NCBI GenBank assembly: GCA_019925095.2
Contig: CM034392.1
Coordinates: 7,452,887 to 7,516,886 of the forward strand
Length of the DNA stretch: 64,000 bases
Reading direction: 5' to 3'
Source: Dendrolimus kikuchii
Taxonomy: Eukaryota; Arthropoda; Insecta; Lepidoptera; Lasiocampidae
The notes beneath the pieces are model-generated. The model was not told where the DNA came from. It did not search any database and was given only the letters and a program-made list of their open reading frames with translations. Shown here piece after piece: positions 21,014 to 58,199 of this stretch (position 1 is its first letter; each line of letters begins with the position of its first letter). The translations under genes and the position numbers were made by a program.

Positions 21014-24000
21014 ATGGTTAAAATAATTAGTACACTACTAATAATTATATATACTTCAATACTCTCTGGTAGGTGATATTACAAAGTTTTAAGATTCGAT
21101 TATTTATAGTGTTGTTATATCTTATTTTTTATTACGTAATTGTTACAAAACTGTAATAAATATTAAGTATTAGCTTGCACAAGTTCCATACTGAATGCTG
21201 TGAAACAATCAAACTAATTATATTTCATTTTGGGCCAATTTTTCAATCACCAGGTAAGCAGGTAAGTAAGTTATTCATAGAATAAAATAAAACATGGGAA
21301 AATTAAAAATGTTGCATGAATAAAATAGTTGAATTGCTTCACTTTTAAATACAGCAAGGTTATAATTTATTCCACTGATAACTTTTACCTGATGATTGAA
21401 AAATAGGAGTATTATTATCTAGGTTGCAATACCTACATATTTAAGAATATTGTATTTTTTTTTTATTGCATGAGTTATTTGCAACACTTAAGCCTACAAA
21501 TGCGCTGTTGCTTTCTTAAGGGAGACTGGAATCTGTCCACTAAGGCCAGAACACAACTCAAGGTTGTTATGGCGGCATACTCTAGACCAGGGGTGGTAGC
21601 CATCCAGTCGAGCAAATACCCTACCACCTGGCTGTGGGTTGTTTTGCCGCCTCTTACGACAGGCCACCCGGCCGCAGGAAATTATATTCTTTCTCCGTTC
21701 CTGCACGGTTGAAAATCATAAACACTTTGACAGAACTTGAATAAAAAAAAAATTAAAGTGATATTTTCCTTCCATAGTCGTTAAACGCGCTATTATCCCC
21801 TGTCGATTTTTTTCAATGCATGGTGGAAAATTCTGGTAAAATTTAAAGTGGTAAGACTTATAAATATATTCAACAATAATTCGTTTTGGAGTATTTTCAA
21901 ATAAATATATTTTTTTAGGGTTCTGTAATCAAGTAACAAAAATAATGGATGTTCATCACCATTACTAAGCTCTTCACTGTATGTGACGGCTTATCTCAGA
22001 CGTCTGCCGTTTTCATTTTCGAACTTCTTTTGCTTCTTTTTTATATTTAAGTACGTTTTCCATTGTATATTCCTCATTATATATTAAACATATTTATCTA
22101 TTGTAATATATGTTAATATAAAATGCTTGTCACATATAATGTTAAAAAATATATTTATTTAGATTATTTTGCATATAGGTATATATATTACTATTATATT
22201 TATATATGTATTAAACTTATATATTAGTGTAATTATTTGTATTTAAATTGTACAGTCCTATCTTTTTTCTGCTCCAGCTACATCGCTAGATTAGTTAAAA
22301 AAATTATTTTAAGCTGGGTTGCCTGGAAGACATCGCTTTTAGCGATAAGGCCGCCAGTTGTTTTGCCAAGAAGTATTGTAATTAGAAATTTTGTCTTTGT
22401 ATTTATTTGTTTTGGTGAACAATAAAGTGTTATCTATCTATTCCATTTATTTTTGTGTTTATTTCCATTCGTTTTTATTGTAGTTCAAAATAAATATTTG
22501 TCCTTTATTTTTATCATTTTTTTTATTTTAAATTAAACAAAAATATCCATCTACAATTATAGGCTCTTTGAGGCTGATCGGAAAGAACGAACGACGAAAG
22601 GCGTTTAAGAATAAAGCCTTTGACACGTATTGGGCGTTGTTTTACTGTAATACGAGCTTGACTATCACTATATCTTAATCTTAAGCGATGTTTGTGCCAA
22701 AATAGTTTTTTTTTGTCGCAAATAATATTATAAATTATTATTTTGTTTAAACCCTTTAACCTCTTGGTTCTAGAATTAATCCCATAATAATCAACAATTT
22801 AAAAAAATCAAATTGAATTGAAAACATAACTGTTCAATCATGTGTTTTATCATTAGTAACAAAATAAATAGATAATAAATAATGGGCTGACAAGTACAGA
22901 TATTGTATAATCACAAGCTAAGCAAGTTAAGTATGTGTTATGAGTAATATACAACGAACCACTCTGGGGCCGATCCATTAACCCAGACCATCGTAAATAA
23001 CTACCCCGCAAGGGAACTGGCGTGAAGTTATGTATGTATGTATGTATGTATGTATGTATGTATGTATGTATCGTAAATAACGAATATTTCATTTCCGACA
23101 TTTACCATGCCAGGTATCAAACGTTGGTAAAGGCTTAGCCACCTTAACCACAGAAGCCGCTAAATATTCTACATAGGTACAAAATAAATGACGCTTACGC
23201 TGATGTAAAATGAACTAAATATGCATTCTTATTAAAAAAAACAGCAAATGAGTACTAGTTTTAAGATGCACGATTATTTCAGAATGCCGACAGTTTCGAT
23301 TTGACTACAAATATTACCGAGAAATAGACGGCTACCTAAAGTACAATATAGTTCCTGCCTCATGGCATGATGCAAGACTTCGATGCCTCTATGAAGGTAA
23401 CTATCCGCTAAGTTTTGCTATCAAGAAGCTTTAATACTATCAAATTTAAACGTTGTAATGTCCCACGCCTAGGAATATGATGTATGATGACATCCAGAGA
23501 GCCATCTTGAGACCAAGGCCAAGAGCAACTGCTTAGAATTTATGAAAATGTCTTGTGCTAAGCTCAAGTAAGACCATATAATAACATGAAGTACTTACTG
23601 TACAGACCTGTGACCAGGACTCTGGCATAATCCTCTGGCTCGATGTATAATGTAATTCAGTTTGTATTATCAGGGATCGAATACACACAGACTGTCTTGC
23701 CTTATAGAAATACAGCGCTGTGCTTTTTATCGTCCGTATACTGGAAAGTAATCAAACATAGTAGTACCTTCGTCTCATTTCTAACACCACTCTTCTCGTT
23801 ATTGGCTGGGCTTTCATTTGTTGTATTGGTGTACAATAAAGAGTTATTGATTGAATAATTTCCTTCAGCCGCTCCGCTCTATAACCAGACTTTCTTAACA
23901 ACATAATTATTTCTTGCGTTCATTATGGGTTGGGAATGATCTTCCAGCCGAGGTTTTCGCACCGCATTACGATATGGGAGTTTAAAGTTTCCAAAACCTA

Positions 24001-26325
24001 TTCTGTATATTTTTTCAAGACCCGCAGCACATTGGTAACACCTATAGTTCTGCAAAAATACATAGTCAACGGTAACCACTTTTAATACGGGTATCAGCTT
24101 GTTTGCCGTACTATATGTAAAAAAAAAATGGTGCCAGACTAACAGAACAACAAATCAGTAGGTACCTTCCGAAAAATCAGAATTAGTCTTTTACTGTAGT
24201 TGTATATACTGAGTACCATGTAAATTGGAGGAAAGTGGCCTTTGGGAAATGATATGGAAGCTAAGGACGCAATCGAGATTTGGAAAACTATTAATTAAAA
24301 TATATTTTGACCGTTAACAATCAAATTAATTTCAGGCGCGGAGTTAGCTTCCCCAATAAATACTAACATGTTGAAAGCATTGAGAGAGATTTGGACTCAC
24401 GGCCAAGGTCCATGTTCCACTTTATGGACTGGTGTGCATGCCACTTTCTCCAAGGGAGATTATTTTTCAGTTGGAGGTTTGTTTAGCTTTATTAATCTTA
24501 AGATTTTTAAACATATATTAATATACAATTACTCTTCGCCAATAATAACTAATGACTCTAAGAAGCTAGTATAGAAGATCAATGTCTGCAATAGGATGTA
24601 AAATAGTTTTATTTTTAAATCTAATGAGAAATATTGCATTTAATACTGAATTGGTTGTCGAAGTATTAGACTAAATTTCTATTAAATGATAATATTGAAG
24701 TACATTGTTTATCAAAACCTTTTCAATTCTTTACTACTACCATGGAAAAACAATATACTTTCTTCCATGCTCCTAGTAAAAAACGGTGCTTTAGGAGGGT
24801 TCGTAAAGTTTTCTACTTAGCAATAATTAATTAATTACTCATTATTTATTTGTATTTAACCAAAAAATCCGGCATATTTTTAACTAAACAAAATTCTGTT
24901 TACATGTTCACATCGATATTAGTTCTTTAGTTTTCGAACAGTTGGCGTTAGTAGTAACAGTCCAATTGATATTAGACATGTCTTATTGGTTTTATAATTA
25001 TCGAAAGATAGCGTTAGGAGTGCAATGAAATTCTAATTAATAAAAATTGTTAATCTTCTATTTTTTTAATGTGTATAAAATAACCTTTTTTAAGATAGAT
25101 AACACATGTAGAAATAGATGGAAATCACTATGTAAAAGTCCAATTAATGTGAAATTGCAATAGTTTCTCAGTACAGTGTACCACAAAAATGCATAGGTTT
25201 TGGGATAGTGTAGGGCTCGCTTCGATCGCTCTAATAATAAGGTATATTTTAAATAGAGCAGCCGTCACAAATAAGTGTATATGGAAGATATCTTTTTAGA
25301 CATTATTGGGTAAATCTTATGAACTAGAGTTACAGATTCTTAACTTTCCATTACAGGAGTTCCGTTAGCCAGAATGCCCATAAAATGGTCAACAAATGAA
25401 CCTGATAACTTCCAAAATGTTGAAGATTGTCTGGTTTTGCTCACAAACGGAACTGTGGCTGATGTACCTTGCTATGATTCTTTCTCTTATGCCTGCTTTA
25501 GGAAAAAGACTAGCGTGGTAACTGCTTGTGGAACGATTGATCCTGGTGAGTTCATGAATCTTTCTCGAATTTTGACAGGATTACATTTGTTAACAAATTC
25601 TAATAAAAACAAAATACTCATATTAATCAACAATGCCTTCACCGTGACAAAAATATTGTTCATTATATTTAACCGATGTTATTGTTGTATTTTTTTGTTT
25701 AAAATAGAATATACCTTGGACTCAAGAACTGCAAGCTGCTACAAATTCCACAGCGCAGGACTTATTTGGAGTCGTGCGTTCATGACGTGTGCAGCAGAAG
25801 GTGGCCATTTGGCTGTTATCGATACAGTTGGAGAACATCTAGTACTCAAGGATATATTTGCAAAACATCCTCCAAATACACTCTTTAATGCCAAGGATCG
25901 GGACATCGCTTTCATTGGTTTCAGTGATTGGGGTAAAAAAGGCACATGGACAACAATTCATGGTTAGTTGAGTAGTTTATTATTATACTACATACATGTG
26001 TTATAGTTCATTTATACAATTTTAATTTATTTTGATTCTAGACCAGCTGACGTTTACCTAAAGTTTTTTTCACTCCGTTAAATGTTTATTTATTTACGTT
26101 AGGTATACAAACTATAATATTGTTACAGGTAGTAAAATCGAAGATATGATCGCTGCATCTAAAGGAAGATGGGCTGATGGACAGCCTGATAACGCTTTTC
26201 GAGACGGTGAAGGGGAAAGTTGTGGAGGTATATTCCGAAACGGCCTGTATGATGATCTTTGGTGTAATTCACCAAATGTATTTATTTGTGAGAAGAGCCC
26301 AGACAGTTTACTCGAGCTTGACTAG
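21014..26325 (+). CDS. Dual-CRD C-type lectin, copy A (immulectin-like)
   Basis: Exons: 21014-21068, 23283-23396, 24336-24476, 25357-25545, 25708-25962 and 26129-26325. All introns are GT-AG and phase 1, giving 316 aa. Exon 1 is a signal peptide (MVKIISTLLIIIYTSILSG). Exons 2-4 encode CRD1 (WHDARLRC in exon 2, LWTGVHATFSKGDYFS in exon 3, EPD at residues 118-120, DVPC, YACF). Exons 5-6 encode CRD2 (GGHLAVID, GTWTTIHG, QPD at 270-272, GLYDDLWC, FICEKSPDSLLELD). QPD normally favours galactose-type ligands; EPD in CRD1 is intermediate. The product is expected in haemolymph, recognising microbial glycans. A differs from its paralogues in having NVEDC where they have NCEDC, so it lacks one otherwise invariant Cys. 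AATAAA lies at 26347-26352. Intron 1 holds a family-S repeat and a SINE. Confidence 0.92.
21440..21712 (-). repeat. Family-S repeat in intron 1 of lectin A
   Basis: Reverse complement of the 13855-14170 repeat, with its tail as a T run at 21456 and its 5' end 'ccgtgcaggaacggagaaag' near 21711. The open frames on both strands here belong to the repeat. Confidence 0.75.
22250..22440 (+). mobile_element. LINE 3' end in intron 1 of lectin A
   Basis: Carries 'ttgcctggaagacatcgctt' and 'agcgataaggccgcc', then 'ggtgaacaataaagtgttatctatcta', the conserved 3' terminus of a lepidopteran LINE. A related piece is at 48600-48690. A different LINE 3' end ('ggtgtacaataaagagttattgattga') lies at about 23790-23856. 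Confidence 0.65.
22905..23160 (-). repeat. tRNA-derived SINE copy 2, split by an RTE tail
   Basis: Matches the SINE at 985-1193, including the reversed A-box region (ggcttagccaccttaaccacagaagcc at the right end). The B-box is decayed. It is interrupted by the LINE insertion at 23002-23069. Confidence 0.7.
23002..23069 (+). mobile_element. Extremely truncated RTE-type LINE insertion
   Basis: Only the last 30-odd bases of the LINE ('ccgcaagggaactggcgtga') plus a (TATG)n tail are present. The perfect 12-bp duplication ATCGTAAATAAC lies at 22990-23001 and 23070-23081. Confidence 0.88.
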
Positions 26326-26856
26326 TTTAGATTGAATTGATTGAATAATAAAAAATAATATTTTTCAATATGTTTTATTTCGCTCACGTGACGACCTTGT
26401 TATATGGGAAAATATAATTATAAGATCTACTTTTGCATTATTAATCATTTATAACGAGCCTAAGATCATATAATTCTATTCACCATTCTGCTTAAGGAAC
26501 GATATGTAACCCTATTGCCTATTTTTTTTTCCTTTCATCCTCTCCATAACAGTTGAAATGAGAACGGTAGGTACCTATTGTATATTTTTCTTCTATAATC
26601 CTCTGACATACGTCGCCTGTAACACCACATTAGTCACACTATCAGTACTATGATAATTTCGTACACACAGTATCCCGTCGAAGAATATCTTGTATCACCG
26701 ATGTTTTGTTATCTTATACCGGACAATGAAAAATCAGTCAACAATAAATGAGCGATTTATTAAAAAACGTGAAAAATTAGCAAACAAACTCTTATTTGGA
26801 TCTGTCTCTTTCTATGTCTTACTATTCATTCGTTTACCTTCTTATTATTGCATAGG

Positions 26857-27056
26857 TCAGCAGACAGGCAGACAGCTCACCTGATGACAAGCGGTTACCA
26901 TCGCCTATAGACATTTGTAACACCACATATGTACATATAACTAATTGCCAGGTGGTAGGGCATTTGCCCGACTGGATGTCTACCACCCCTGGTCTAAAGT
27001 ATGTCGCCATAACGACCGTCTGCCTGTCTGCTGATCTCCTGCAATAAAAAAAAAAT
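26857..27056. repeat. Two family-S fragments in inverted order
   Basis: 26857-26935 is the 3' part on the minus strand ('gcagacaggcagacagctcacc', 'agcggttaccatcgcctata'). 26942-27056 is on the plus strand ('ccaggtggtagggcatttgc' to 'tgatctcctgcaataaaaaa') with its centre missing. Confidence 0.65.
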
Positions 27057-29410
27057 ATGTGCCAGCGAAATGTATTTTCAGTTTTGCTATTTCGACGGTT
27101 TTGTTAGTGACTCGTTGGGTCGGGATATAAGATTGCTGTGTCGAGTTTCTTTTAAATCTGTTCAGTATTTTTCACGTGATCCTCTAACATACAGGAAAAA
27201 ATTCTAATAGTTGCAGTTTCGGAATCTGCTTGTCCGAATTAGCTCCTCTGCTTTATTTATTTTTTCTATAGTACTTGATCAAAATCGACACCTCTAGAGA
27301 TTGATTATATAATAGATAGATAGACTATTGAATTTATGTTTTCAGCGCAATGTTTATTTAAAAAATATATCTATTAAAAATCAGCCCTTTCGCTTGGTCT
27401 ACCCTTTAACATTACTTCACAAAAATTGTTCGTTATAAGCTACACTAGGATTTGAAGTATTATTGGAGTAAGCGTTTTTTTAAAAAAGCAGTTGATTCGA
27501 TTTCTGACAGGGGCAATTGATATTTCAAAAATCTAATGATACCACTTTAGTTTTAGTCAGAATTGACCTCTAGACTCCTTTGAGTGTTTTTCGCCATTTC
27601 GTATAGTTTAGGATTTGGCTCGGCCCACTTGAAAAATTCACCTGTATACTTCAAGTCTATTACTTAAAACTTTACTGAAACTGAGTTATACTATATATAC
27701 TTCGGCTTCTTACCAATACCCTGCCAAGGGGTATTGTTTCAAGAAACGAATTAATAACCCAAGTCGACGTCCGACGTTATCTAACTCCTTACATTACGCG
27801 GAATTTTCCCCCAGCGGCGTAGCGAGAGAAGGTACATATTGATAGCCTCCTTCTGCAATACCTTTATGTCGCAGTAAAAGGAGGGTGAGAGGCAGAGGGA
27901 AGATCATGACCAAGCAGACTCTCCTCTCAGATAGCGTACAGAGATTCGGAAGCACTACGCCTACCTCCTCCTCATAATTTAATGAGACTGAAGAGTCAGG
28001 GAACTTCCCTAGCGAGCCACACCAATGGCTCAAGGTGTACCATAAAGAAGTCCTATTGCGAGGGGCACTTCTTTATGGTCGGTTTGTGTTGAAGCATCAC
28101 GGTAAAATAGCTAGGGCAGATCTAGTGTCAACTTACCAAGATGCGGAGGATGCTGGTGCTAGCAAGTATTTTGACAGCCGGCAAAAAATAACCCGATTAG
28201 TTTTAAATTTACCAAAAATCACAAAAAAATAAAAACCCGAAAACTAAAAAAAAATTACAAGACATACACTGGGGCGATTCAGGTACCCTTTCATTTAAAT
28301 TAACTAAATTTTTCTTTTGAACGTAACAGAGATAAAAGAAGGATTAAGCTTTCGGTGTATGAACTGAACTAGAGACAACTTCGAACATCCGATTTCAAAA
28401 AGATTAAACATTGAATACCCCATTTATTATAAGCACTAACATAAACTATTCATAGAATTATACATATTGATAATAACACAAAGAATATGTGGATGACTAC
28501 ATTGTTTACAAACAAAATTACTAACATAACAATTTGAATTAGAGAATCAAATATAATAACATCATAAAATAATATACCTCGAGGTTATTTTTAATATAAG
28601 TGACAAACAGAAGGGGCCATTGACCAATCAGAATGAATATTACCTTAATTTAAACTTTCTGACGCAGAAAAATGTTGTCTATAAGACAAAAATTAAACCA
28701 AACGAGACTTTGTTCCTGTAATATTAGAATGCATGTCCCCCGAGACGATATCATCTTTTGGCGTAAAATATCCTAATACCATGATGCCCATATCTTATTA
28801 ATCCTTGTTAATTTTCAAGCCCGTGAACTTGACCTGAATGATATGTTTTTTTACTAATTCTGTATACTTAATTGTTTCTGTAGTTAGATGCAGTACATCA
28901 ATAGGGTTTATTCACATCAAACAATCAATCAATCTTTATTTGCTAAACCATAGATAGGTACATGAATAATATTACATAATATAAAGTTTCCAGTATGTTT
29001 TATCATTTATATGACGTGCAAATACTTACATTAACTAAATGTCTTGATGCTAAAACCATACACTAATGTTTCCAAATTAATTTTATAGAAGATGACCATG
29101 CCCTATCAGCTAAAGTCGACAGAGTACTTACAGCAATTTTTCCAATATTAACTGTAGTTCCTTAATCAGTCTGGTCGTAAAACGCCATCTAGTTTCAATT
29201 GAGTATAGCTACTCAATAACAACACCTACAAAACTAACCAAAGAAATTGCTTACTAAAAAAATATCTTGATTATGACACTAGGAAGGGTCTATATTTCTA
29301 CAATCTACGGGTGATAATCCTGGTATATTAACTTAAATTCAATCTAAAATGGATATTCACTGAGATCAATATAAATAATATTTAATAACTCTCTCAAAAT
29401 AAATCGACAC
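27057..29410. other. No gene between lectin A and the broken copy
   Basis: AT-rich sequence with unassigned GC-richer patches (27720-28150). Frames at 27794-28033 (minus) and 28035-28232 (plus) have no recognisable product. Confidence 0.35.
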
Positions 29411-30964
29411 GGAAAACCGCTTACTAAATAGCAATTATGAATTTATTCATATTAAATGAATAAAATTATATAAAAGATGGAATTGAAACTTAATTTTTAT
29501 CCGAAGTTTGTTAGTAATAAAACCTGTAAAAAATTATGGTCATTTTTTTAATCCTTTTCTATTTTGCTAATTTTCTTTTGAACCAACGTGGCAATCTCAG
29601 ACGTTTGTAAGTACTAGGATATGCCCGCGACTTCGTCCACACTTGACTTGAAATTCCTGCGGGATTCCCGGGACACAAAATATCGCAGCATTTAAAAAAA
29701 GAATGTAAGCGATGGTGTTATAGAAACTGGGTTGGAATAAGCTAATTTCTAATTTCTAACAACTCCGCGGAAAAATTCCAGCGGAATTCCCGGGATAAAA
29801 AATATCACACATTTTATTACATTAAATTTGGTATCGATCAGTAAAAAAATAGTAACTTGTCCCAGGGACACCCATCCTTGTCAGTTTGTATCCAGGTGTC
29901 ACGGCAGTTATACCCATGGTTACAGTCCCGTGGCGCCTCATTATGGTACGGAGGGACGCTGGAAGGTTTACTGAATAGTCTGGCGGTTGGTGCTTGCAAG
30001 CTCTATTATGAAGCTTGTCTACAACACCGGCAGCCGGGAGTCCCACATACCCCTTGATGGCCTCCCCTGGAGCATGAAAATATGCGCAAATGCATTCCGC
30101 CAGCGCTAACAAAAAAAGGGGTTTGGTCATCATGAATGCCAATAATTGGTCATCAAATAAACCCGACAGCTATCAAAATTATGAAGATTATCTGATCTTG
30201 AAGTCAGATGAAACAGTAGCAGATGTCTCTTGCCATGAAACTTTCACTTACGTGAGCTTCAAAAGTAAGGCAACAATAGGTGCGCTAACTGATTGGGGAG
30301 CAACTAAGCCTGGTGAGCGATTTATGGATGATTAGAAAGAGATGATGTCTAACTAAATTTAAGCTTGTAACCTCTTAAACCCAAGATAAAGAATAATGTA
30401 ATCCATAAAAAACTAATTCTTTTCCTGTACTTGTATTTCTTCCCAAAACAAAATATACATGGGATAAGACAACTGAAGGCTGTTATAAATTCCATAAGGG
30501 CGAACTTATTTGGAGTCATTGATACTGTTGCAGAACATCTAGTAAGTACTCAAGGCTATACTCGAAAAATATCCCGAAAATACACCTTATAACACCAACT
30601 ATAAACAAAGCACACACGTTAGCTTCAGGGACTGGGGTGAATTAGGCACATAGAAGACTATTCCTGGCTAGTTGAGCAATTGAAATTACTTTTGTCATGT
30701 GCCTACATTTTTACCTGATGGTTTTGCTTCAGTACTTCGTGTACAAAATTCTTAAAATTATATTGTTCTTTTAGGTGACAGACTTAATGACATAATCGCA
30801 GCATCTGAAGGAGGCTGGCAAAGTCCCCGATAATCTCTGTCAAAATGGCATAGCCAAGTTGTGGAAGTAAGTATAAACCGATCGGACTTAATAATGACAT
30901 ATGGTGTAATGTACCATTTGCTTTCGTCTGTGAGAAGAACTCAGATATTTTAAATGCAGATTAA
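29411..30964 (+). pseudogene. Broken dual-CRD lectin copy between A and B
   Basis: A promoter relic (GGAAAACCG at 29411-29419, TATAAAAG at 29469-29476, then GATGGAATTGAAAC) is followed by no exon 1, 2 or 3. Exon 4 homology runs 30134-30312 with the donor kept, but three Cys codons are altered: EDC to EDY, YAC to YVS, and DCG to DWG. Exon 5 homology (about 30453-30669) has lost its AG acceptor, has a deletion of about 40 bp after 'ttatttggagtc', an insertion after 'gaacatctag' and a TGG-to-TAG stop. Exon 6 homology (30775-30964) keeps its acceptor and C-terminal 'FVCEKNSDI' but has a frameshift around the QPD site. The 81-codon open frame at 30090-30335 is only the exon 4 relic. Helitron and other repeat sequence occupies 29614-30100, where the lost exons should be. 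Confidence 0.88.
29614..29842 (-). mobile_element. Helitron-like fragment inside the broken lectin copy
   Basis: Starts CTAGGATATGCCCGCGACTT and matches, in reverse, the right end of the element at 33704-34247, including 'cgggataaaaaatatcacac'. It lies between the pseudogene promoter and exon 4. Confidence 0.6.
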
Positions 30965-31159
30965 TTAGATAAATGTATAGTTAGTTTTATGTAATTTTAA
31001 TTTTTTCTTATACTACAATAATATTAACAAAGAACTATGTATTCCTAATTCTGCTGTTTGTATTGTATTGGGTCTTAAAATACATTGTAAATAATAAATA
31101 TACGGAACTCTCTTACACCATATTGATTTAATTTTGTGTGAGTAATAGTTAATCTATAC

Positions 31160-31224: not shown

Positions 31225-31279
31225 AAGGAATTAAATCGATTGAAACATTTATATTCGAAGGTTTCAATAATATTTTAAA

Positions 31280-34200
31280 ATGAAGATGTTAGTAAATTTA
31301 ATAATACTTATAAATTTTGCAAAGTTTTTTGGTAAGTTACTGTTTAAATTTTTATCCTTGTGTAATTTTACTGTCATAATTTTTAAACGAATATAATTCA
31401 TTTGCTTAGAAACAACAAATAAAACAATAAACATCTTGATAACCAAAGAAGGTGGCTAAAGCACCACCCTAAGACTATCTGAATGATTGAAAATTGTTTT
31501 TAGTTAAAAATCAGTACAGCATCCATCTCCACTTCCTTTAAAAGAAAAAGAAAATAGTCTAAATATCAAACCTCTATAAGAGCTGTACAAAGCCCAATCT
31601 TCCTAGGTTCTTAATGTCCATGTGAACCTTAATTCCGAAAACCGTTTTTTAACGAGACGAAATCCACTTACGGACATTTCACCGTGCGAAGATCACGGTG
31701 GGTCGCGAGAAGTCGCTATAATCTCGTAACCCTAGCTCAAGGAAGGAAGAGCGGAGTGTTTTTAGTGAGGGGTTATCCCTGAATGGTGGGGTATACATTA
31801 ATGTGTACAAACAAATATTTAAAAAAAACGCTATACGACAATATAACAAGTCATTCTTGTGATATGTCACACACTTCAATTAAGGACTACATACGATACG
31901 AATACCATATAAATAAGTTATTTCTATACAAAATATCTAATTTAGTACAGTGACTTTATAAAGTAATACAATAAAAGAAAACTTAACTTATTTATATTGT
32001 ATGGTGCCCATAGTCCCTCAAGATTATAAGTAGAATACTGCGCCTAGGTCTATCTTTTACGGGCAAGGTGCCCAGAAGGCTGGCTACGTTTCCTCGTTGG
32101 ATCGCAATACTTGTTGGCAACACCAACATAAAATATTTTATATTGGCAACATTGTAGTTGCATTTTTGTTCCTCTTCCGTTTGGGTTGTAGCCGAAGGCA
32201 GACGCTCTAATATGTAAAGTTTACTATTACAAGTTTTCACCATCTAACAGTGTTTAACTTCCACAAATACATCAACCTGGGTATCCTGGAACCACCACCA
32301 TCAGCGTGCATCACAAATATATATATATTACGGGCGCGACGACCTGCGCGCAATACTGATCCGTTGATCGAGATAGTCACCAGCCCTCTGATCACCTGAC
32401 GATTCTATGAGTCATTTGATAAATTTTGGTAGAGGCTCATGGATTCAAGACCCCATGGTCCAAGCGTTTCCACAGCTAAGGGCACAAATATATAACTCTC
32501 CCTGAGGGTGGCATATTTGCACCGCTTGAGTGATTCCGCTGTTTGGTTTGTGTTTGGTAAATGGGATGCGGCCAATGTGTCCACGCAGGTCGCATCGTAC
32601 ACCAATGGCTTGCTACGTTACCATTAAAATCGGTAATAAATAAATAATTATATAAATTCATTGTCAAATTTGTGTATGTATAGCTGTAATCCGAGACGTC
32701 ATCAGCGTTTATTTCTAATTTTTCATAAGATACTAAAATATGACTATTTCAGAATGCAAGGAGTTTCGATTTGACTACAAATATTATGAAGAAACAGATG
32801 GTTACTTAAAGTACAACGTAATTCCTGCCCCATGGCACGATGCTAGACAACGATGCCTCTTCGAAGGTAAATATCAAAGAAGCTAATCTATACCTAGTAA
32901 AATTTTCGATTACCACTAAACCTACAATGCCTATATTATAAATCTTATAGATAATATTATTCATGAATGGATAATTAAACCAGTTTAAACACATTGTAGT
33001 CCTTATAAGTTAATTATTTATCAGTAGTAAGCAGCGGGTGACAATATACATTGTTTAATCTTATATCATACTCTGAGTAAACGTTATCCAAATGGATGTT
33101 ATTATTATTTGTACTACTTCAGGTGCGGAATTAGCTTCTCCGATAAACCTTAGAATGCTGAAAGTCCTGAAGGAGATTCGGTCACAAAGCAAAGGGCCAG
33201 GTGCAGCGCTATGGACTGGAGTACACGCCACCTTCTCCAAAGGAGATTATTTTTCAATTAGAGGTTTGTCAAAATTTATATTTCACCTTTTAACTCATAT
33301 GAAGTAGAATTATCTGAAAATCTGAAAGAGAGTGTCGGGGTGAAGGTAAGGAAAGGAATGCTCCGGTGGTTCGAGCATGTGGAAAGAATGCATGATGAAA
33401 GAATGACAAAACAGATATACAATGCAAAAGTGGATGGATGGAGAAGTCGTGGAAGGCCACGACACACCTTCCATGATCAAATTGATCGTATACTAGCAGA
33501 AGGTGATGTCAGGAGCCTTAAGAACAGACGAGCGTGCATGACAAGAGCTATGAATGTCAAAGAAGCGAGTGAGGTGTGTAAGAATAAGCTTGATTGGCGC
33601 TCTGTTGTTCGTGCCTACCCCGCAAAGGAACTGGCGTGAAGCTATGTATGTGTAAGTAGAATTATCATTATCAACTGCAATATAATATCTGTTATAATAT
33701 CTATCTATATAATATCATAAAATTCTAAACATGCTGTGTCTGGATATTGTAGCTATTAAAAAACAACTGGAATACACTTAATAAACGGTGGAGAACATGA
33801 TACAATTTTTTTAAGATTTCTTGTCTGTTTGTTTCTTTGTTCGGGATTCACGTAAAAACTAATGGGCCCATTTCGATGAGGTTTCGGCTGATTGACAGCA
33901 AATTCTTAGACTTAAAATTTGCGCTATTTTTTATACTGGGAATCTCGCGAGAATTTTTCTGGGAAGGGTTTAAAATGGCCAGATACAAAAAAAATCGAAT
34001 GCCCATGAGACTTTTTCACTGATCGATATCAAAATTTATGTAATAAAATGTGTGATATTTTTTATCCTGAGAATTCTGCGGAAATTTTCCCGGAAACAGT
34101 TCGAGTGCATAAAAATTAGCTTATTCCAACAAAGTTTTCACTAAAACGATAGCTTACTATAATTGTTAAATGCTGCTGTACTTTGTGTCCTGGGAAATCC

Positions 34201-45000: not shown

Positions 45001-45472
45001 CGTAATAATTTAGGCGCGGAGTTAGCCTCTCCAATAAACCCTAAAATGCTGAAAGTTCTGAAGGAGATTCGGCCGCAGGGCAAAGGGCCAAGTGCAGCGC
45101 TATGGACTGGGGTACACGCCACCTTCTCCAAGGGAGATTATTTTTCAGTTGGAGGTTTGTCAAACTTTGCATTTTATATATTAAAATTTTAGATGATAAT
45201 AATTAAATATCTTATACTAATATATAAAGCTGAAGAGTTTGTTTGTATGCTTGAACGCGCTACTCTCAGGAAGTACTGGTTTGATTTGAAAAAAATCTTT
45301 CAGTGTTAGATAGCCCATTTATCGAGGCGAGGAAGGCTATAGGCTATATATCATCACGCGAAAACCAATAGGAGTGGAGTACCAATGAAGAATGTTTTAA
45401 AATCGGGGGTTGTTTTTTAACTTACTTTTCTTTAAACTATTCCACGCGGATGAAGTCGCGGACAGAAGCATA

Positions 45473-45513
<41 letters not shown>

Positions 45514-48088: not shown

Positions 48089-48096
48089 TATATAAA
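48089..48096 (+). promoter_or_regulatory. TATA box of lectin E
   Basis: TATATAAA followed by TAATGGA, 66 bp before the start codon 48162. The GGAAAGCCA element of the other copies is not recognisable upstream. Confidence 0.5.
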
Positions 48097-48161
48097 TAAT
48101 GGACTGTAAATTCTTGAAACATTTGCATCAGAAGCTTCTAATTAAATGAAATGTAATTGAA

Positions 48162-51100
48162 ATGCAGCAATTATTAAGTTTATTAATAGTTATTATACTA
48201 TGTTGTTCAAAATACTCCGGTAAGTCGTTGTAAAGAATTAAAACATTGTATTATACCTATATAAAATATTTTCATTATTTTATCATTTTTGAGATAAGTA
48301 CTTTCCTGTTTTTATCATTAAGTGTATGAATTAATGTACCAATCACTATAGGGCGGATGCCGCCATCCTTTTTTACAAGAGCAAATAAATTAGCACCAAA
48401 TAACGTCGGTACGACTTCGCTTGTCACAGAGCCGACAGCATTAAATTCACCACGTCTGTTAAATCCTTCAAGAGCGTTTCACCTGCGCCTCCGGTAGGAC
48501 CAAAGCAGATCCTTAAGGTGTTGCGGAGTGAGACCATCTTGGCCGCTAGCGGAGCCGCCTTTAAAAGACAACAGACTGGAGAACAATCCTCGGCTCGGTG
48601 ACTAAGTACTTCCCTTACGTTAGGTTGCCTGGAAGATGTCGCTTTTACCGATAAGGCCGACTTTTGTTTTACCAAGTAAATGTTTTATCTATGCTTTTTT
48701 ATAATTTTTATTTTGCACTATTTATCTATATATATATTATTCTTATCCTTATGTGATCTAAGAAAACTGATATATTTTAATTCCTTTCATGTGGGATTTT
48801 TTAAATCTACCACTTAAACATTACAATCTATTCTAAAGAGATTAATATGTATTATATAGGTATATATAACCTAAATAAACTTAAAATATTTATACCAAAA
48901 ATGTGTCCATTGAAATTTTTCCTCATTGTATCTATTAAGGCGAATACACATTTTTTTTAGTTTTTTTGATAATACGTATACTACATTATACAATATATTA
49001 TAATAAATGACTATTATAAAATTCAATGCTGTCAGTATATCATAGATCACCATACAGTATTGGAGTCGGCTTTTGTAGAAGACTTGGTAATACTTCAATA
49101 AAACACTAGGGGCTTACTCTCAAACAACTCTTGTTGTTTGTCTCCAATGTTAAAACGGAATTTACAAAAACAAACAACGGAAGGCGAGGCACGATTTAAG
49201 CCTTAAATTAGACGAATGCATTTCTGTCTTTCAATGTGTATAGAAATAAGACATAATAATTAAAACAAAAAAAGTGTTCCAGGCTTCGCCCTTATGCCAC
49301 GGCCAAGGGTGCATAGCCTGGCCTCCCCGCGGGCCCTGGCAGGCGGTGGCACAACGGCCTTATCCATTGTCGGGGAGCTACTTTTTGTCCCCGGCATCTT
49401 CAGTCAGAGAACCCTTTCCCCAGGGACCCACTTAATAGAAGGTGGTTACCGTCGCCTATAGACGTGTGAACCATCAGGAGTGAAGCCAATGGGATAGAGG
49501 GATCAGACAGGAGAAATGGTGTAAAGCGGATAAGGAAGGGGAATTGAATATAGGACGGGGAAGTTAGGATAAGGCAAGGGGGAAGTTCCCCTTGTTATTG
49601 AAGAGGGTACTTTCCCTCGCAGGGTACTCTAAGTGAGAAAGCCAAGCGTCAGAGTACGACAGATGTCGTGCCTATGAACTAGTTCCCGTGACACCCCATA
49701 AAAGTCCACAGGAGAGGGCTGCAGGTTCAGGTTAATGGGTAGTTTGATGGCCGATATCCCCGTGTCCTTCGCTCGGAAGCCATCGTGAGAATAAGACAGT
49801 TCAAGAGTACCACATGTTCCTCGGTTTAAAGTCTCCGCCAAGGCCCGAGGATGCTGTCACAAGAAAGACATTCCCTTGCGTTAACAAGAAATGGGAGGAG
49901 GGAAATGTGAGCTATCGAAATTCTCACTCATCGTACGAAATACGATTAACTAGAGGCTAAAAACTAACTAACTCCGTTGGCTCAGCGACCGAAAGCGAGT
50001 CTTGGCATCCGAAACGAGAGCACGCCACTTTCCTCTCTCTTGCGCAGTGTCTTGCCAGTTGTGGGCTTGTAGTTCGGTTAGGTGCTGACCTAAGCTGCTA
50101 AGTGGAAGATGTTCCACTTTATCTTCCCAGCGATACTTGGGATGACCAACCGGTCGCCGACCGACTGGTCGCCCCAAGTATGTTACTTACTAAAGCCTAA
50201 CCATTATATTATAAAGACAGAACTTTGGAACTCGTTGTTCTTCCATTCATAAATTATTGTATGCGAGACCGATTCCGCGTTTAATATTTTTCTATGTAAC
50301 GAATATTTTTACCATGGCATTTTCTGACCAGAAATGCGCAATGAGTTTGGGAGATATTTCACAATATTTGTGGTTGATTATTTTCAGAATGCAGGCAGTT
50401 TCGGTTCGATTACAAGTATTTTCAAGATGTGGATGGCTATTTCAAATACAGTGCAGTCCCAGCTACATGGCTTGATGCTAATTTAAGATGCCAATTTGAA
50501 GGTAAGTTGACATTTATTTCTTTTTTTAAATAATAATCACATAAAAATTACAAACTAGGAAACAATAAAGGAAACATAACTTATATTGTATTATACCTAT
50601 AATCCTTTAAGACTATAAGTAGAATACTGAGTCTAGGTAGTCGAAGTCAAAGTTCCTAGAAGGCTGGCTACGGTAACTATGCTGTATCACCATGCTGATC
50701 CGTTGTCCAGGGTAAGAACCAGCTCTCTGTTCACCTGTAGAGTCAATGAGTCGTTTTGACACGTCTATGAGACTCATGGTCTCAAGACTACAGTCAAAAT
50801 ATTTCAACAGTAAACGGCACGATTATATAACTTACATCGAGAATTGGGTATGGAAGAGAGAGCATGAAAGTAGAGTAAACGCGGTCGAGATGCGAGCACT
50901 GCGCAAAATCTGCGGAGTGACGCTCGCGGACCGCGTTCGTAATACCGAAGTAAGAAAGAAAGTTGGTCTGAAAGAGAGTGTTGGGGTGAAGGTAAGGAAA
51001 GGAATGCTCCGGTGGTTCGGGCATGTGGAAAGAATGCATGATGAAAGAATGACTAAACAGATATACAATGCAAAAGTGGATGGATGCAGAAGGTGATGTC

Positions 51101-54100
51101 AGGAGCCTTAAGAACAGACGAGCTTGCATGACAAGAGTTATGAATGTCAAAGAGGCAAGTGAGGTGTTTAAGAATAAGCCTAAATGGCACTCTGTTGTTC
51201 GTGCCTACCCCACAAGGGAACTGGCGTGAAGTTATGTATGTATGTATGTATGTATGTACATCGAGGGTTGTATGTATAATTGCGCCGTTGACGCTGGAGT
51301 GACTCAGCTGTTTCCGCCGCCGAACTGGCTGATCTAGACGTGTTCGATGAATGGGATGCGGTTAACGTGTCCACGCAGGTCGCATCCTATACCAAAGACT
51401 TGCTCAAATATATCCTGTTAAAAAAATTATGTTTTAACGGCTTTAAGCGTAGTATTTTATTCTATTTTTATTATTCCGACGTTTTGACCACTTTTCAGTA
51501 GCCGTGATTACGGAAGATGAAGATGTCATGTATCAATAAGAATTATTAAAGTTTTTATTTAGCCTACCGCGCCAACTTGGTAATTTTAATTATTTAGTTT
51601 TAATATTTACTTTTGGTTATTATTTACTCTATGGAAGCCTAATCTAATTTACCAATGCTTCGCAATATGTTGTGGCTTGAAGAGAAAAAGCAGCACAAGA
51701 AACTCTTCAGCAACATGCCTAGCTCTAATAACTTTATATAATATTAAAATGGGTGAGAGGTAAATTTGGTAATTTATAAAGAAACAATTAAATATTTAAA
51801 AAAAAGTAAAATACCGATCCCCATCTGCAGTGGTGCCAATTATACCTACTTTCAGTAGGTATTCGTTTTAGAAATCTCGCCTACAATTAGACAGACAAAT
51901 CCTTCGGTTTCCGCAAATAAGTCACCAAAACGTAGCCAGTTCACCGACGCTGGTAGGTCCACATCAGGCCGTGTTAAATCCTGATATAACCTAGTGTGCA
52001 ACTCTGCTCTTGTACGTTCATACGATCAGAGATACTCATTACCAACGGCCTCTATTATTATTAAACATTCCAATATTCTTAGCGTATTTTATATTCTTGT
52101 CTGTTGCCAACCAGCCTATCCTGCACGCTTTCTATATATTTTTTTGATGTATAAGTTCAACAGACAGTCAGACGGCCCATATGATGGAAAGCGGTTACCA
52201 TCGCCTATGGATATATGTAACACCAAAGGTGCTAACCAATGTCCTACAGCTCTCTAAAGGGAGATTGAATCCTGGCCACTAATGCCGGAACACAACTCAG
52301 TTGTTATGGTGGCCTACTCTAGACCAGGGGTTTTAGCCATCCAGAAGTACAAATACTCACTTAGCTGTGAGTTATTTTGTCGCTTATTACTTTCTCCGTT
52401 TCTGCACAGATCCTAATAGCAGTTGAATCCTAATATTTCGATAAATTTTAATAGTTATATATTTTTTATTTATTACAATTTTCTGCATTTGTGGATAATT
52501 TCATCTGTGTAAGCATTATATTAAATGAAGATATTGTCATTTTAGGCTCTGAATTAGCGTCCCCAATTAATTCTCTTATGCGCCATGTCATGCAAGAGTT
52601 CAGCAAATCAGATCAAGAAACCAATAAGGCGTTATGGACTGGAATTTCCGCCATATTCTCAAAAGGAGACTATTTTTCAGTTGGAGGTTTGTATTCAGTT
52701 ACAGTCCACATTCACTTGAAAAGGTGACCTGCAATAAATGCTTTGTGCAAAACTTGATTGATGTAAAAGTTATAAGAGGTATTACTAAAATAATATGATA
52801 TTATAATAACTGTTTTTTATTAGATGATCTCTTCGGAATGTCCACGATTTAAAGAAAGTCCTTACTTTTTATATTCTAATTGACGATTGCTTGCTATTCA
52901 ACATTCAAATTTCAATTCGTTCCTTCGGGCTCCGCTTTTAATAATAAAATTTAAGAAACAAAAAAATTACATTAATAAAATCATATCATTTATTTCACAA
53001 AAAAATGTACATATTGTAGCAGGTGGTAGGTGGTTTTTACAGAGATCGACATGTTTTTTGCCTGTTCCGCGCACAAATTTAGCTACAGATGATTAATAAT
53101 GTAGTGGGACACTTACAAGCCAATAGATGGCGCTGTGTAATAATAGAAGTCACAAACGTTACCCAAAACATACAAAGAATGTATACAAATTTTCAACAAT
53201 AAGAGTGGGCCTAGGCCTGCGAGGAACATCATTAGCCTCGCTGAAAGATCTTCCTTTGAGACGGAGGAGGCAAGAGCATTCCGTCTCGCTCTTCCACCCG
53301 CTACGGGGCACCCCCTTCAATAAATTATTTTATATAAGTTATTACTTTCCACACAATCACTATTAATTAAAAAAAAAATATACTAATTATAGTATTACCA
53401 TCGGTTATTAATGTGCGTGCGTTACAAAATAATTAGAGGTCGGGTAATCAGTGAAAAAAGGTTGAAAGATTCTTTTACATTGATACCTACCTACTAATCA
53501 TGTAGAATATGTTGTATTCAAGGTCAAGCTAATAAAAGCATGTTAAAATACTTTCAAAGAACATTGACTTAAAAATAATCCCGTTGGGCGGTTTTTGTGC
53601 TATGATAGTTCACAAAAGGTCGACATGACAATTTTCTAGTGTTGTGACGTCACATACCATATAATCGATATTGATTAGGTGCACAACAAAACTGTGGTCA
53701 AATGCGTCTTATTTATGGAGTTAAAAATAAAGCCATTAACAAATGGACATATTAGAACATATACACGTTAGCTGTCAATATGTAACGTCATTATCATTTA
53801 AACACAATACTGCAGTATTCTAATTATTCTTCCGCTGATTTTCACAATTTACTAATACTTTCCTGTCAATTCTCATGTTTGATAATAGATTTTTTATTAT
53901 TTAACACGTGACCAAGAAATAAGCAAAGTTATTTTCAATACTCAACTACTGTACAAGCAACTTGAGCAAGATCCAGATGGATACGTGGTCGATGCTCTTA
54001 TTCTCCAATACATCGGTTGTTGGTCCAATGGGTGGATGAGGGGCTTCGAGCATGAGCTCTTTACTACGGCTGCAGCTCGGAGGGCAACTACCCTCCAGTA

Positions 54101-57100
54101 TCGGTGAGTGGGAGCCGCCGTAGTGTCGGCGACTCGCCGGGCCAATCAGCGGCTTTCGGTGGTCTTCGCGGGCTTCGCGTTGGCTGTCTTTGGCATCTGA
54201 TGGCCTGTCTGCGGCTTTAGGGGCTTGATTCGCGACTCCTTAACATCGCGGACTCGTGCATAACTATTTAACTAAAGTGGGCGCTGTTCGAATCTGTAGG
54301 GCATCTCCCCTCCGCGCCTCATCTCATATCCCGATTGTTATATCGACATGTCGTACACTATACCTAATTTCAATTAATTACTTTTTAGAGATTCGTAGTC
54401 AAATAACCAAAAGGATGAACGTTAATATCTACGGAAACTTTAGACGTTCGTGTTCCTACATACACAAGCTAGATAGTTACATAGGTGGATAGATAGTAGC
54501 AGTTTATTGCTCACCAAATAAACAATTGTAAAAAAAAATAACAAAACAAAACTGACTTCACTAAAAAGTATTACATTTTGTAAATTTCTTGTTGTTCTAT
54601 TATGTTTTAGGTACTTGGCACCGACTTCTAGATGTTGAAGTCGGTTAAATATTTATTCTTTTGTTTTTAGTGTGAAGTCGGTTTTGTTTTTGTTAAAAAA
54701 AAATAGTTTTTACTTTTTATGTGCGCAAATAATTCAATAGATTTAGAAATAATATATTAAGCACCTGTAGAAATTGTACAAACTGGCACGCGTATACTAA
54801 TTTGCTATCTCACGCTTCAGTGTGATATGCTCTTTAACAATGGTTGCTCTCGATTTCCTTGCGATCCACAGATACAGATCCTAACTTTGTGACTATGGAC
54901 TATGGGATCATCTCACAAGTTAAAAAAACAATTTGAAAATCAGTCCACAATTGACGAAGAAATCGCGAAAACATGCCTACAAATATTTTCCAAGAATATA
55001 GGCGCACAGCGTTCTTTAATAAGGGTAATGCTCGATAGCCCTGGGATCCGCCCTACTCATCAAATCCTGACTTGGTGACCATGGGTCTACCTCTGGAGTA
55101 TACCCTTACGAGTAAAGGAAATAATTTGAAAATTAGTTTACAATTGACGGAGATATCGTGTTACGAAGAATTTGGCTAACAATTTTCGTGAGTTTCTCTA
55201 ATTCCTTGGAATCCACTCATCAGATCCTGACATGATGACGATGGCTCCAATTCGGGAGTATAACCTTTCGATTAAAAGAAAAATTTTGAATATCGATCCA
55301 CAATTGACGGAGAAATCGAGTAACGAACATATAAAAAAAAACCATACACATGAATTGCGAACCTCTTCCTTCTTCAAGTCGGTTAAAAATGTATTAAAAT
55401 ATTGTTTTGGTAAAAACGATAGGCGGCCTTATCATCTCTTCGAGGCAACCTAACTTAATACAAATTAAACTAATTTCGCGATGTAGGTGGTGCCGAGTAT
55501 TAAATAGGATTGAACTTAAATACACATGCTTAAAATACTTTTTTGTAGATTTTTTGATTTGTTAAATTTTTGTGTATTTTTGGATTTCAGGGGTCCCGTT
55601 AGCCAGAATGCCAATAACTTGGGCGAAAAATGAGCCTGACAATTTTCAAAACTGCGAAGATTGTTTAATATTGTTACAAAATGGAACTTTAGCCGATGTC
55701 TCATGCAATGATACTTTTCCCTATGCTTGTTTTCGAAAGAAGACGAGTTTAGTAACTGAATGTGGAACAACCGATCCTGGTAAGCTGACTATTTTTTACT
55801 AATAGTAGACTATATTATGCTATACAGTATATCAAATCATATATTATTGTAACATCAAATTGCGCGTAATTTGAACGCATGCAAAGTTTACCCATTTACT
55901 GATTTGATTGATTGGGGTAAAATAACGAGCGTTTCGAACATTAATTTATGGATGCCTATTAAAAATGTTCATTATTTCCATATTGAATGATATGAATGAA
56001 AAATAGAACATTTTGTTTAAAAACATCCCTTTCCCTTGGTTTGCCGTTTGCCATTCCTTCCAGAAATTGATCCTGATGAGCTACACTATAATTTGGTATA
56101 TATATATATATATATACATATATGAGTTTCAAAATCAGCTGATTTATTCCTTACAAGCACAATTGATTTTTCTAAAATCTAATTACGTCATTTTAGTTTT
56201 CGTAAAAATCGGCCTCGAGACTTCTATTAGGGTTTTTCGCTATTTCGTATAGTTTAGGATTTAACCCTGAAAGCCAGCCCACTTGAATAATTAAAGCAGT
56301 AGACATAATTTTTAACTTAGTGCGAATGTAAAGTTTTCACAGAACTGTCATTTTTGCTCATCTGTTTCCTTTTCAAACACCGTACAAACTGGATGCGAGA
56401 ACTGGAAGCTGTTACAAATTCCATAAGGGACCACGGAGTTGGAGTCGAGCGTTCATGACTTGTGCAGCGGAAGGTGGCTATTTGGCTATAGTCGATGTAG
56501 TTGGAGAACATCTGGTACTCAAGGATATATTTGCTAAAAATCCTTCCAATACACTCTTCGGCTATGCACGAGATAGCGCACATATTGGATTTAGGGATTT
56601 AGATGGCAGAGGCACCTGGACAACGATACACGGTTTGTTGTTTTATTAAATTTACGAAGCAAGCACAGTCTGAGACTTATTTTATGGCCATTTTTGTGCC
56701 GGGTATAGACAAGACAACCGAAGCTAGAGTCCATTCACGCTTAAGGCATGAGACAGGTACATTAGAGGCTTCTGGTATAGGTGAGGCGTCAGCGCGATTC
56801 GGGCGCGGCGCCACTCTTTACATGTTTCATACAAAATTTATAGAAGTTTTGGGGCGTCAAACATAAAACAGCTCTACGCCACTCCATTTGTATATGTCCC
56901 ATGTCCGGCCCCTTCTATATATTTGATATGAAACAGGTAATGAGCGTCGGCACCTAAGCTATACCCGGCGCCACTTATGCATGTACTGCGCCTAAGGCTT
57001 ATAGATAAGGGAGTTCAGCGCTTTTGTCGCCGTGGGGTGCTTTGCGTCCTACTGTGATAATGGATGAGGTGGTCTTGGCCGGCGCCTGTCAAGCTCTATG

Positions 57101-58199
57101 CAGGGCACATAATTGCCATTTCCCGCAGCCCAAGCTATAAACGAATTAAAGTTTTAGTGGCTATTCTATTCCGGCAGTGGTAAAATGCTTCCACCAAGGT
57201 CCAGGAGTAGGTAATAAGTCCGCAAACGAAAACGGAACTCCTCATAAAAAGGGTTAACGATCGGGTTTCATTTGCCATCATTGGCTCTATGTAGGAGTTT
57301 CATCTAAAGGTCAAATGGTTAGGCGTAAGACTCCTAACGTTAACGCTACGTGATAGATTCCCGGTGAATGCTAACCAACGATCGTCTCCCTCCGTTGACC
57401 GTGTGTGTATGCTGTCTGAAACGAGTCATAAAATATACCTTGTCCTATATCTTGACTTATATTGCGCAATGATTATAATTAAATTATTTTTAAGAAAAGA
57501 TTGATAGAGTTCAAATTTTCTTGTTTAATAATAATTGAATTTGTAATGTATGGGCGATATTACGCAATGTTTTTAGCTCGGTTATTCAAAACGATCCAGT
57601 GTGCACAATTAATCAACATTACAGATATAGCCTAAGATTTTCTTTATGTTAGCCCACCTTTTATAGTCATCAAGAATTTATGACAGTAATGAGTGGTCCA
57701 TTAGTGCTCAAAATTTTTAATTAACTGTTTATTTGTTAGCAACATTTTAAAAATTTTAGGCTCAGAATAATAATTTCCACTTGTGAGCTTTTTGGTAACA
57801 TAATCTTTTCTCTTCGCAATTGGTTGGCCACAGACTTATTGAGAATGTTTTGGTTATTATAATGAATTTGGATATAAATTTTAATCATAGCAAAGCTTGC
57901 ACTCCTTCGTATGCTCATTACGCATTACGCGGTGCAAAGTTTTTCATAACGTTATCAATTATAATTTACTTCCCAATGTATAACTGACTACTTTATTTTT
58001 AGGTGATAGAGTCGAAGATTTGATTGCAGCATCTAAAGGAAATTGGTCTAATAATCAACCAGACAGCGTTTCACGCAATGGTGTTATCCAACAATGCGGA
58101 AGTATATTCCGCTCAGGTCTCTTCGATGACAATTTTTGTGATTTACCAACCCCATTTATTTGTGAAAAAAGTCCAGATAGCCTCATAAATTTAGATTAA
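48162..58199 (+). CDS. Dual-CRD C-type lectin, copy E (diverged; exon 5 acceptor lost)
   Basis: Exons: 48162-48219, 50388-50501, 52546-52686, 55591-55779, 56381-56632 and 58003-58199. Would encode 316 aa in frame with phase 1 throughout. Signal peptide MQQLLSLLIVIILCCSKYSG. CRD1 has WLDANLRC, ALWTGISAIFSKGDYFS, EPD at 119-121, NCEDC and NGT. CRD2 has GSCYKFH, WSRAFMTC, GTWTTIHG and QPD at 270-272, but GLFDDNFC in place of GLYDDIWC. Exon 5 is one codon shorter than in the others. By homology exon 5 should follow an AG at 56379-56380, but the bases are AC. Upstream in-frame AGs run into a stop (TAA near 56329). The first in-frame downstream AG (56448-56449) would delete about 23 residues including a CRD2 Cys. 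So E is either a very young pseudogene, uses a rare or shortened splice, or has a base error here. The gene spans 10 kb because introns carry many repeats. Confidence 0.82.
48345..48690. mobile_element. LINE 3' fragment in intron 1 of lectin E
   Basis: Contains 'ttgcctggaagatgtcgctt' and 'accgataaggccgac', like the LINE end at 22250-22440, preceded by a GC-richer segment with an 83-codon minus-strand frame that shows no domain. Confidence 0.5.
49262..49870. repeat. GC-rich LINE-like fragment in intron 1 of lectin E
   Basis: 'ccacggccaagggtgcatag' and 'cctggcctccccgcgggccc' are typical of lepidopteran LINE 3' regions. 49440-49460 matches a family-S phrase ('ggtggttaccgtcgcctatagac'). No intact frame. 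Confidence 0.45.
49965..50180 (-). mobile_element. LINE C-terminal fragment
   Basis: The minus strand encodes GHPKYRWEDKV, WQDTAQERGKWRALVSDAKT and a serine-rich end: the RTE-like '..RPKxRWED ... DRxxWRxLV' tail. No upstream domains. Lies in intron 1 of lectin E. Confidence 0.7.
50607..51405. repeat. Dispersed repeat in intron 2 of lectin E, split by an RTE insertion
   Basis: Its two halves (50607-50841 and 51257-51405) match consecutive parts of the repeat in lectin B intron 1 (31990-32625). The gap between them is exactly the LINE at 50842-51256. Confidence 0.6.
50842..51256 (+). mobile_element. RTE-type LINE insertion in intron 2 of lectin E
   Basis: The longest RTE tail in the window: it adds upstream residues VEMRALRKICGVTLADRVRN before the shared KVRKGMLRWFGHVERMHDER block. 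An internal deletion after KVDGCR removes about 60 bp (the SRGRPRHTFHDQ region). The (ATGT)n tail is followed by TACATCGAG, duplicated at 50833-50841 and 51257-51265. Confidence 0.88.
52140..52425 (-). repeat. Family-S repeat in intron 2 of lectin E
   Basis: Minus-strand copy from 'gcagaaacggagaaagtaata' (52410s) to a T-rich tail near 52140. Diverged from the 13855 copy throughout. Confidence 0.65.
53120..53330 (+). repeat. Repeat fragment in intron 3 of lectin E
   Basis: 'tgagacggaggaggcaagagcattccgtctcg' contains a short inverted repeat (GAGACGGA/TCCGTCTC) and ends 'ggggcacccccttcaataaa'. Resembles a dispersed lepidopteran retroelement; family not assigned. Confidence 0.4.
53940..54340. 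other. GC-rich segment in intron 3 of lectin E
   Basis: Markedly GC-richer than its surroundings, with 'gcgggcttcgcgttggctg' and 'cggactcgtgc'. No open frame with a domain; probably LINE 3' UTR. Confidence 0.3.
54600..55400. repeat. Degenerate tandem repeat with GAAGTCGGTT flanks
   Basis: Three diverged units of roughly 165 bp, at about 54863, 55035 and 55195. Each contains 'gatcct(a/g)ac(t/a)t', 'tgactatgg/tgaccatgg', 'aatttgaaaat' and 'cacaattgacg(g/a)ag'. The word GAAGTCGGTT (or its complement) occurs at both sides (54630-54680 and 55376). Lies in intron 3 of lectin E. Confidence 0.55.
56650..57420. other. GC-richer insert in intron 5 of lectin E
   Basis: Contains 'gggcgcggcgcc', 'cccggcgccact' and other GC-rich words absent from the introns 5 of A-D, which are only 76-313 bp. 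No recognisable coding frame and no clear boundaries. Confidence 0.35.

Follow-up and report, generated by a model that had tools for sequence, protein, structure and literature searches.

A tandem immulectin gene array in the moth Dendrolimus kikuchii with one decayed, one splice-defective, and one probably mosaic copy

How many of the lectin genes that lie side by side in the genome of Dendrolimus kikuchii, a pine-feeding moth of the Lasiocampidae, are still intact, and how did they come to be there? The question is raised by a stretch of 64,000 nucleotides (scaffold C6:7452887-7516886 of the 705.5 Mb genome; hereafter, the window), in which an initial annotation had described five same-strand gene models and an intervening broken copy within 37 kb, and had considered them a local expansion of immulectins with two carbohydrate-recognition domains (CRDs). 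Our analysis confirmed this description in its main points. The window carries a real, well-preserved immulectin array in which one copy is dead, one is splice-defective, and one is probably mosaic. The array starts with the ATG of copy A (21014) and ends with the TAA of copy E (58199), exactly the outer coordinates first proposed, and all five models are on the plus strand.

Exon ends were set from conserved codons and splice dinucleotides. Read in this way, four of the copies are six-exon genes whose splice sites are all GT-AG and whose five introns are all in phase 1. Copy A (21014..26325) encodes an intact dual-CRD lectin of 316 aa from exons 21014-21068, 23283-23396, 24336-24476, 25357-25545, 25708-25962, and 26129-26325. 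The other three each encode 315 aa: copy B (31280..35329) from exons 31280-31331, 32753-32866, 33123-33263, 34388-34576, 34750-35004, and 35133-35329; copy C (36886..40596) from exons 36886-36937, 38337-38450, 39250-39390, 39682-39870, 40045-40299, and 40400-40596; and copy D (42078..46968) from exons 42078-42129, 43243-43356, 45014-45154, 45802-45990, 46204-46458, and 46772-46968. Exon 1, of 52-55 bases, encodes a hydrophobic leader, exons 2-4 (114, 141, and 189 bases) encode CRD1, and exons 5-6 (255 and 197 bases) encode CRD2, the lengths of exons 2-6 being equal across A-D. The same six-exon structure had been ascribed to all five genes; this is true of A-D in splice sites, intron phase, and exon lengths, and fails for E, in which the acceptor of exon 5 reads AC.

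The proteins of A, B, and D are letter-identical to the public K1T71_003762 (P0003), K1T71_003763 (P0002), and K1T71_003765 (P0001), respectively. With C itself as the query, no identical public protein was found among the 120 listed of 195 matches, where D was the best public match (87%) and the tag K1T71_003764 was absent. Copy C may be unannotated, although this search would have missed a model that differs much in length. No more exon matches were found in the flanks, 20 kb to the left and 30 kb to the right.

Two stretches in each of the A-D proteins match Pfam Lectin_C (E-values 7.1e-18 to 9.5e-20), and the C-type lectin fold was found in the predicted structure. The N-terminus encoded by exon 1 is hydrophobic and, in the predicted structure, forms a helix at residues 2-18. 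Cysteines and motifs were counted in 65 aligned rows that include B, D, and E (the last as its public model), copy C not being a row. The core cysteines C52, C127, C141, C149, C282, C296, and C304 are present in 65/65 rows and C193 in 64/65, the exception being the shortened public model of E; with exon 5 included in the reading of E, A-E have Cys in every one of the eight columns. An extra CRD1 cysteine before EDC (C124 of D) was found only in B, D, and E among the 65 rows, and C also has it. Copy A is without an equivalent of C124 and alone has a cysteine at position 82 (D numbering). In a tree of 52 proteins built by a quick method, the five copies stayed together as one clade (SH-aLRT 99) placed among lepidopteran immulectins (IMLs), rather than falling into unrelated lectin clades, and the sister of this clade was a set of three other D. 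kikuchii lectins. The dual-CRD immulectin identity and the local expansion are thus both upheld by the paired Lectin_C matches of A-D and by the single clade.

Between A and B lies relic P (29406..30977, plus strand), which was traced by tblastn, blastn, and frame readings. Its core-promoter remnant at 29406-29489 comes from the shared 5' flank (blastn), with 82% identity to the 5' flank of D over 29422-29489. An exon-1-like frame starts at ATG 29536, and remnants of exons 4, 5, and 6 occupy 30147-30961 (tblastn), the exon 5 and 6 parts being interrupted by stops and frame breaks; exons 2 and 3 were not detected by tblastn. Shared sequence around TATAAAAGA was found upstream of A-D and of relic P. 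Relic P is most simply read as the decayed duplicate of a complete gene and its promoter, and the exon remnants and 5' flank piece establish the broken copy that had been reported. As the gene models, splice sites, relic, Lectin_C matches, and identical public proteins all agree, the array is far beyond chance. We are fairly confident that the best explanation overall is a tandem immulectin array of D. kikuchii with an immune role in the hemolymph, in which the whole six-exon gene and its promoter would have been duplicated locally and repeatedly, one of the duplicates having decayed.

Is copy E (48162..58199) part of the working set? Its exons 1-4 (48162-48219, 50388-50501, 52546-52686, and 55591-55779) and exon 6 (58003-58199) are normal, and the frame is open if the join to exon 5 is made at the conserved position (56381-56632). 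There is no acceptor AG at that position, the dinucleotide at 56379-56380 (plus strand) being AC. Among the 15 exon-5 copies compared, E is the only one without the acceptor AG. The 14 others were A-D and 10 loci elsewhere in the genome on C6, C12, and C14 (L003, L005/L042, counted once, L026, L028, L029, L030, L031, L032, L034, and L035); L004, which could not be aligned at the boundary, and matches on C14 (two), C3, C5, and C6 (single and weak) were left out. None of the AGs listed for exon 5 starts at 56127-56409 gives a stop-free in-frame exon, and such AGs occur only inside exon 5, beginning with those at 56450 and 56468. Copy E is therefore not an intact gene by canonical splicing. Because the frames of its exons 5 and 6 are open, the loss of the acceptor is recent, or is tolerated, or is an assembly error.

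That E is nevertheless a normal gene is a serious possibility, if one we would put at somewhat under even; the missing acceptor would then reflect a misassembly, a private allele, or continued use of a rare acceptor other than AG. The open frames of exons 5 and 6 when joined at the conserved place are in keeping with it, as is a pyrimidine-rich stretch that is still present upstream of the AC site; the AG in all 14 other exon-5 copies speaks against it. So does the public annotation, which had RNA-seq among its inputs according to the genome paper (PMC8589036): its model of E, K1T71_003766 (P0004; 287 aa), bypasses the site and starts exon 5 at 56468, which cuts 29 residues. Alternatively, E may produce a shortened lectin with a crippled CRD2 and a working CRD1, either through the AG at 56468 or by skipping of exon 5, and this we consider plausible, though probably not the case. 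The public model uses 56468 and still scores two Lectin_C stretches, and exon 5 of E is 252 nt long between phase-1 introns, so its skipping would preserve the frame. Against a functional short form, the 29-residue cut drops two cysteines, the counterparts of C176 and C193 in D, both of which are kept in all 64 other aligned rows.

The relative ages of the copies bear on how the array was formed. Whole-gene synonymous divergence (dS) is 0.31 for B-C, 0.44 for B-D, and 0.45 for C-D, it is ~1 from A to B-D, and it is 1.6-1.8 to E, where it is near saturation. The suggestion that B, C, and D are young and that A and E are older is correct insofar as no other three copies are as close to one another as B, C, and D; the youth of these three is relative (dS 0.31-0.45). 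Set against the 1.2% heterozygosity given for the D. kikuchii genome (PMC8589036), the divergence of these duplicates exceeds that of alleles many times over.

How old D seems differs between the two halves of the gene, and D is probably a mosaic, its CRD1 half lying about as near to B as C does and its CRD2 half being older. At third codon positions, B and D differ at 18/148 sites of CRD1 and at 52/150 of CRD2 (Fisher p = 5e-6), and C and D at 23/148 and 42/150 (p = 0.011). The B-C differences are even (24/148 and 28/150), and no difference between CRD1 and CRD2 was seen for A-D (49/148 vs 58/150) or D-E (70/148 vs 71/149). The best change point for B-D falls at alignment codon 170, two codons beyond the exon 4/5 border (p = 0.0002, 5000 permutations). 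Other change-point p values, uncorrected, were 0.026 for A-C, 0.021 for C-D, and 0.014 for D-E, the remaining six pairs giving 0.096-0.53. In a longest-run test for conversion, also uncorrected for ten pairs, p was 0.0033 for A-D, 0.013 for C-D, and 0.044 for B-D, and 0.19-0.89 for the other seven. Once ten pairs are allowed for, the conversion signals beyond the B-D contrast are weak. The A-D value reflects a run of 15 sites common to A and D at alignment codons 52-62 of copy A (exon 2/3 region), which may be a second small exchange.

Based on these contrasts there is support, short of proof, for an ectopic gene conversion in which a B-like copy supplied the exons that encode CRD1 of D. In such an exchange, D looks to be the recipient and the B-like copy the donor, since C and D differ in CRD1 about as much as B and C do. 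Two results count against conversion. Alignable introns and other noncoding sequence have no clear CRD1/CRD2 contrast, identity in the B-D blocks being 0.775-0.857 on the CRD1 side and 0.793-0.838 on the CRD2 side, and in approximately unbiased (AU) tests of the segment trees, (B,D) versus (B,C), other groupings of B, C, and D were not firmly rejected (p = 0.127-0.276 for CRD1 and 0.067-0.096 for CRD2). Both results would fit an alternative in which no conversion occurred, and either the silent sites in CRD2 of D changed faster or the contrast is due to chance. We regard this as unlikely; that A-D and D-E are even across the two halves argues that CRD2 of D is not fast.

A bolder form of the conversion reading is that the CRD is itself the unit of exchange, the cassette of exons 2-4 flanked by phase-1 introns having been converted between neighbouring paralogues with CRD2 remaining private to each copy, and E having been newly reduced to CRD1 when one of its splice acceptors was lost. 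We find this rather doubtful. If it were true, such exchange would pair old CRD2s with renewed CRD1s, and lectin combinations would arise in the germline. The array is, in that respect, a small case for asking if insect lectins diversify domain by domain.

Positive selection was considered as the driver of the array. It is not supported, as pairwise ratios of nonsynonymous to synonymous divergence (dN/dS) are 0.13-0.28 and thus below 0.3 in all ten pairs, those with E being taken at near-saturated dS. Purifying selection has acted on average. Copy B departs from the other copies in certain respects. With D as the outgroup, 41 replacement and 25 silent changes were assigned to B, versus 7 and 24 to C (Fisher p = 4e-4), and with A as the outgroup the counts were 35/24 and 13/22 (p = 0.054); the former result is less clean because D is itself probably mosaic. 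The B-C pair has 202 silent and 743 replacement sites, so that 41/25 is still below one per site. We read the excess of amino-acid changes in B as relaxed or altered constraint and not as proven adaptation. At the CRD2 sugar-binding motif, A, C, D, and E have QPD and B has QPY, which makes B the sole row of 65 with QPY for the QPD/EPN-type motif. Copy B also alters the W of GTWTT and carries a cysteine absent from the other four copies. The WND position of CRD2 reads YDD in A-D and FDD in E, its Asp being a possible ligand. The wider ligand range that was proposed for the array is something we can infer at most, and the change from QPD to QPY in B is its plainest sign; by prediction, CRD2 of B no longer binds in the galactose-type manner.

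What do these lectins do? Secretion, ligands, and immune role are most likely those of studied relatives. Each intact copy would produce a secreted protein consisting of the exon-1 leader, CRD1, and CRD2. The lectin would circulate in the hemolymph, where both CRDs would bind microbial surface sugars, and the bound lectin would then bridge the microbe to hemocytes and the prophenoloxidase machinery, leading to nodules, encapsulation, and melanin. BmLBP, BmMBP, and Manduca IML-2 (MsIML-2) bind microbes and start nodules or gather phenoloxidase-activating proteins (PMC10321396), and many IMLs of Mythimna separata are microbe-induced (PMC8235521).

Two observations sit less easily with this role. 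The CRD1 motifs are EPD and VAD in A-D and EPD and LAD in E, in place of the canonical EPN/QPD and WND. In 60/65 rows Ala occupies the Asn position of WND, so CRD1 may bind calcium and sugars weakly. This non-canonical site is not special to the array, because the family sample is alike (EPD in 53/65 rows, Glu in 65/65). In addition, the 500 bp upstream of each of the five genes yielded no kappaB-like site, which is weak evidence since only 0.13 is expected per 500 bp. C-type lectins (CTLs) of Helicoverpa armigera are reportedly linked with microbial homeostasis. That the array has a non-immune purpose, for example in development or in control of the gut flora, and does not serve defence in the hemolymph, is improbable. 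It has in its favor such roles of some lepidopteran CTLs and the kappaB-like sites that were not found, few as those expected were, and against it the hemolymph immunity of the studied dual-CRD relatives (PMC10321396).

Other sequences in the window were also noted. An exon of a CUB-domain gene (Pfam CUB, E-value 1e-9) lies to the left of the array at 1399-1962 on the minus strand. A dispersed repeat of ~500 bp, with pieces 82-88% alike, sits in intron 2 of copy C (38440-39020) and at two places in the left part of the window (12673-13193 and 16049-16164), and looks like a mobile element. A retroelement-like coding tail, with pieces 92-97% alike, was found in intron 3 of B (33321-33651), in intron 2 of E (50967-51241), and at 10989-11319 (minus strand) and 60707-60802, with similar letters in L042; it presumably derives from a retrotransposon. 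The two open reading frames (ORFs) scanned for this tail had no Pfam match. Among the 18 ORFs listed for the window, four others were scanned, with no Pfam match, and an NCBIfam search gave nothing useful.

A protein search of the moth's own genome returned at least 81 matches, these counts being lower bounds: 27 in the window, 36 on C12, 10 on C14, and 8 elsewhere. Of the 27 in the window, 25 correspond to exons 2-6 of the five copies and two to the relic. At 335-544 kb on C12 (both strands) and at 10.97-11.04 Mb on C14, there were at least seven and at least four exon-5-type matches, respectively, which suggests two more immulectin arrays. One C14 lectin, in which a single open frame of 290 codons spans exons 3-5, was considered as an intron-less copy and dropped; its matches are ~75-100 bp apart and an acceptor AG precedes exon 5, so it has short introns.

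Among the papers listed in one open library, none on Dendrolimus and C-type lectins was on topic by title, and none dealt, by title or opening of the abstract, with immulectin genes in tandem or with gene conversion among the lectins of Lepidoptera. The word lectin is absent from the main text of the D. kikuchii genome paper (PMC8589036), in the portion available. The array yields checked immune-lectin gene models in a forest pest and flags copy C and the splice-defective copy E. As an expansion of insect immune genes it is of an ordinary kind, and it leaves the picture of insect immunity unchanged.

Comparison with other lectins supports that view. Lineage-specific immulectin expansions are described for M. 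separata (PMC8235521) and Thitarodes xiaojinensis (PMC7379682). In Mythimna loreyi, 10 of the 120 listed homologues are tagged within PYW08_009533 to 009554 on one 19.18 Mb contig, and these tags suggest a comparable tandem array; unlike the D. kikuchii copies, the M. loreyi rows fall in a noctuid clade. Because of these expansions and the M. loreyi tag run, an array like the present one looks ordinary. Manduca sexta immulectin-2a (P0089) and M. separata IML17, IML18, and IML29 (P0081, P0120, and P0084) resemble the array in length (312-327 aa) and have 43-46% identity to C, and the two that were scanned, P0089 and P0081, have two Lectin_C stretches like the array copies. The array differs from these immulectins in being sister to other D. 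kikuchii lectins and in the extra CRD1 cysteine equivalent to C124 in B, C, D, and E. Closer in sequence are D. kikuchii K1T71_006914, 006915, and 006919, with 50-53% identity, which lie on another scaffold and are perhaps the C12 matches at 335-544 kb. The C12 matches have an exon-by-exon pattern like that of the array and, unlike it, are in blocks on opposite strands. The first ~48 residues of K1T71_006915 (P0009) are probably a mispredicted first exon, presumably the end of a retrotransposon fused to the lectin. For function, the model is provided by BmLBP and BmMBP of Bombyx mori, which are dual-CRD C-type lectins of the hemolymph (PMC10321396); the two B. mori rows that we used (P0063 and P0066), both named macrophage mannose receptor 1, are placed elsewhere in the tree than the array.

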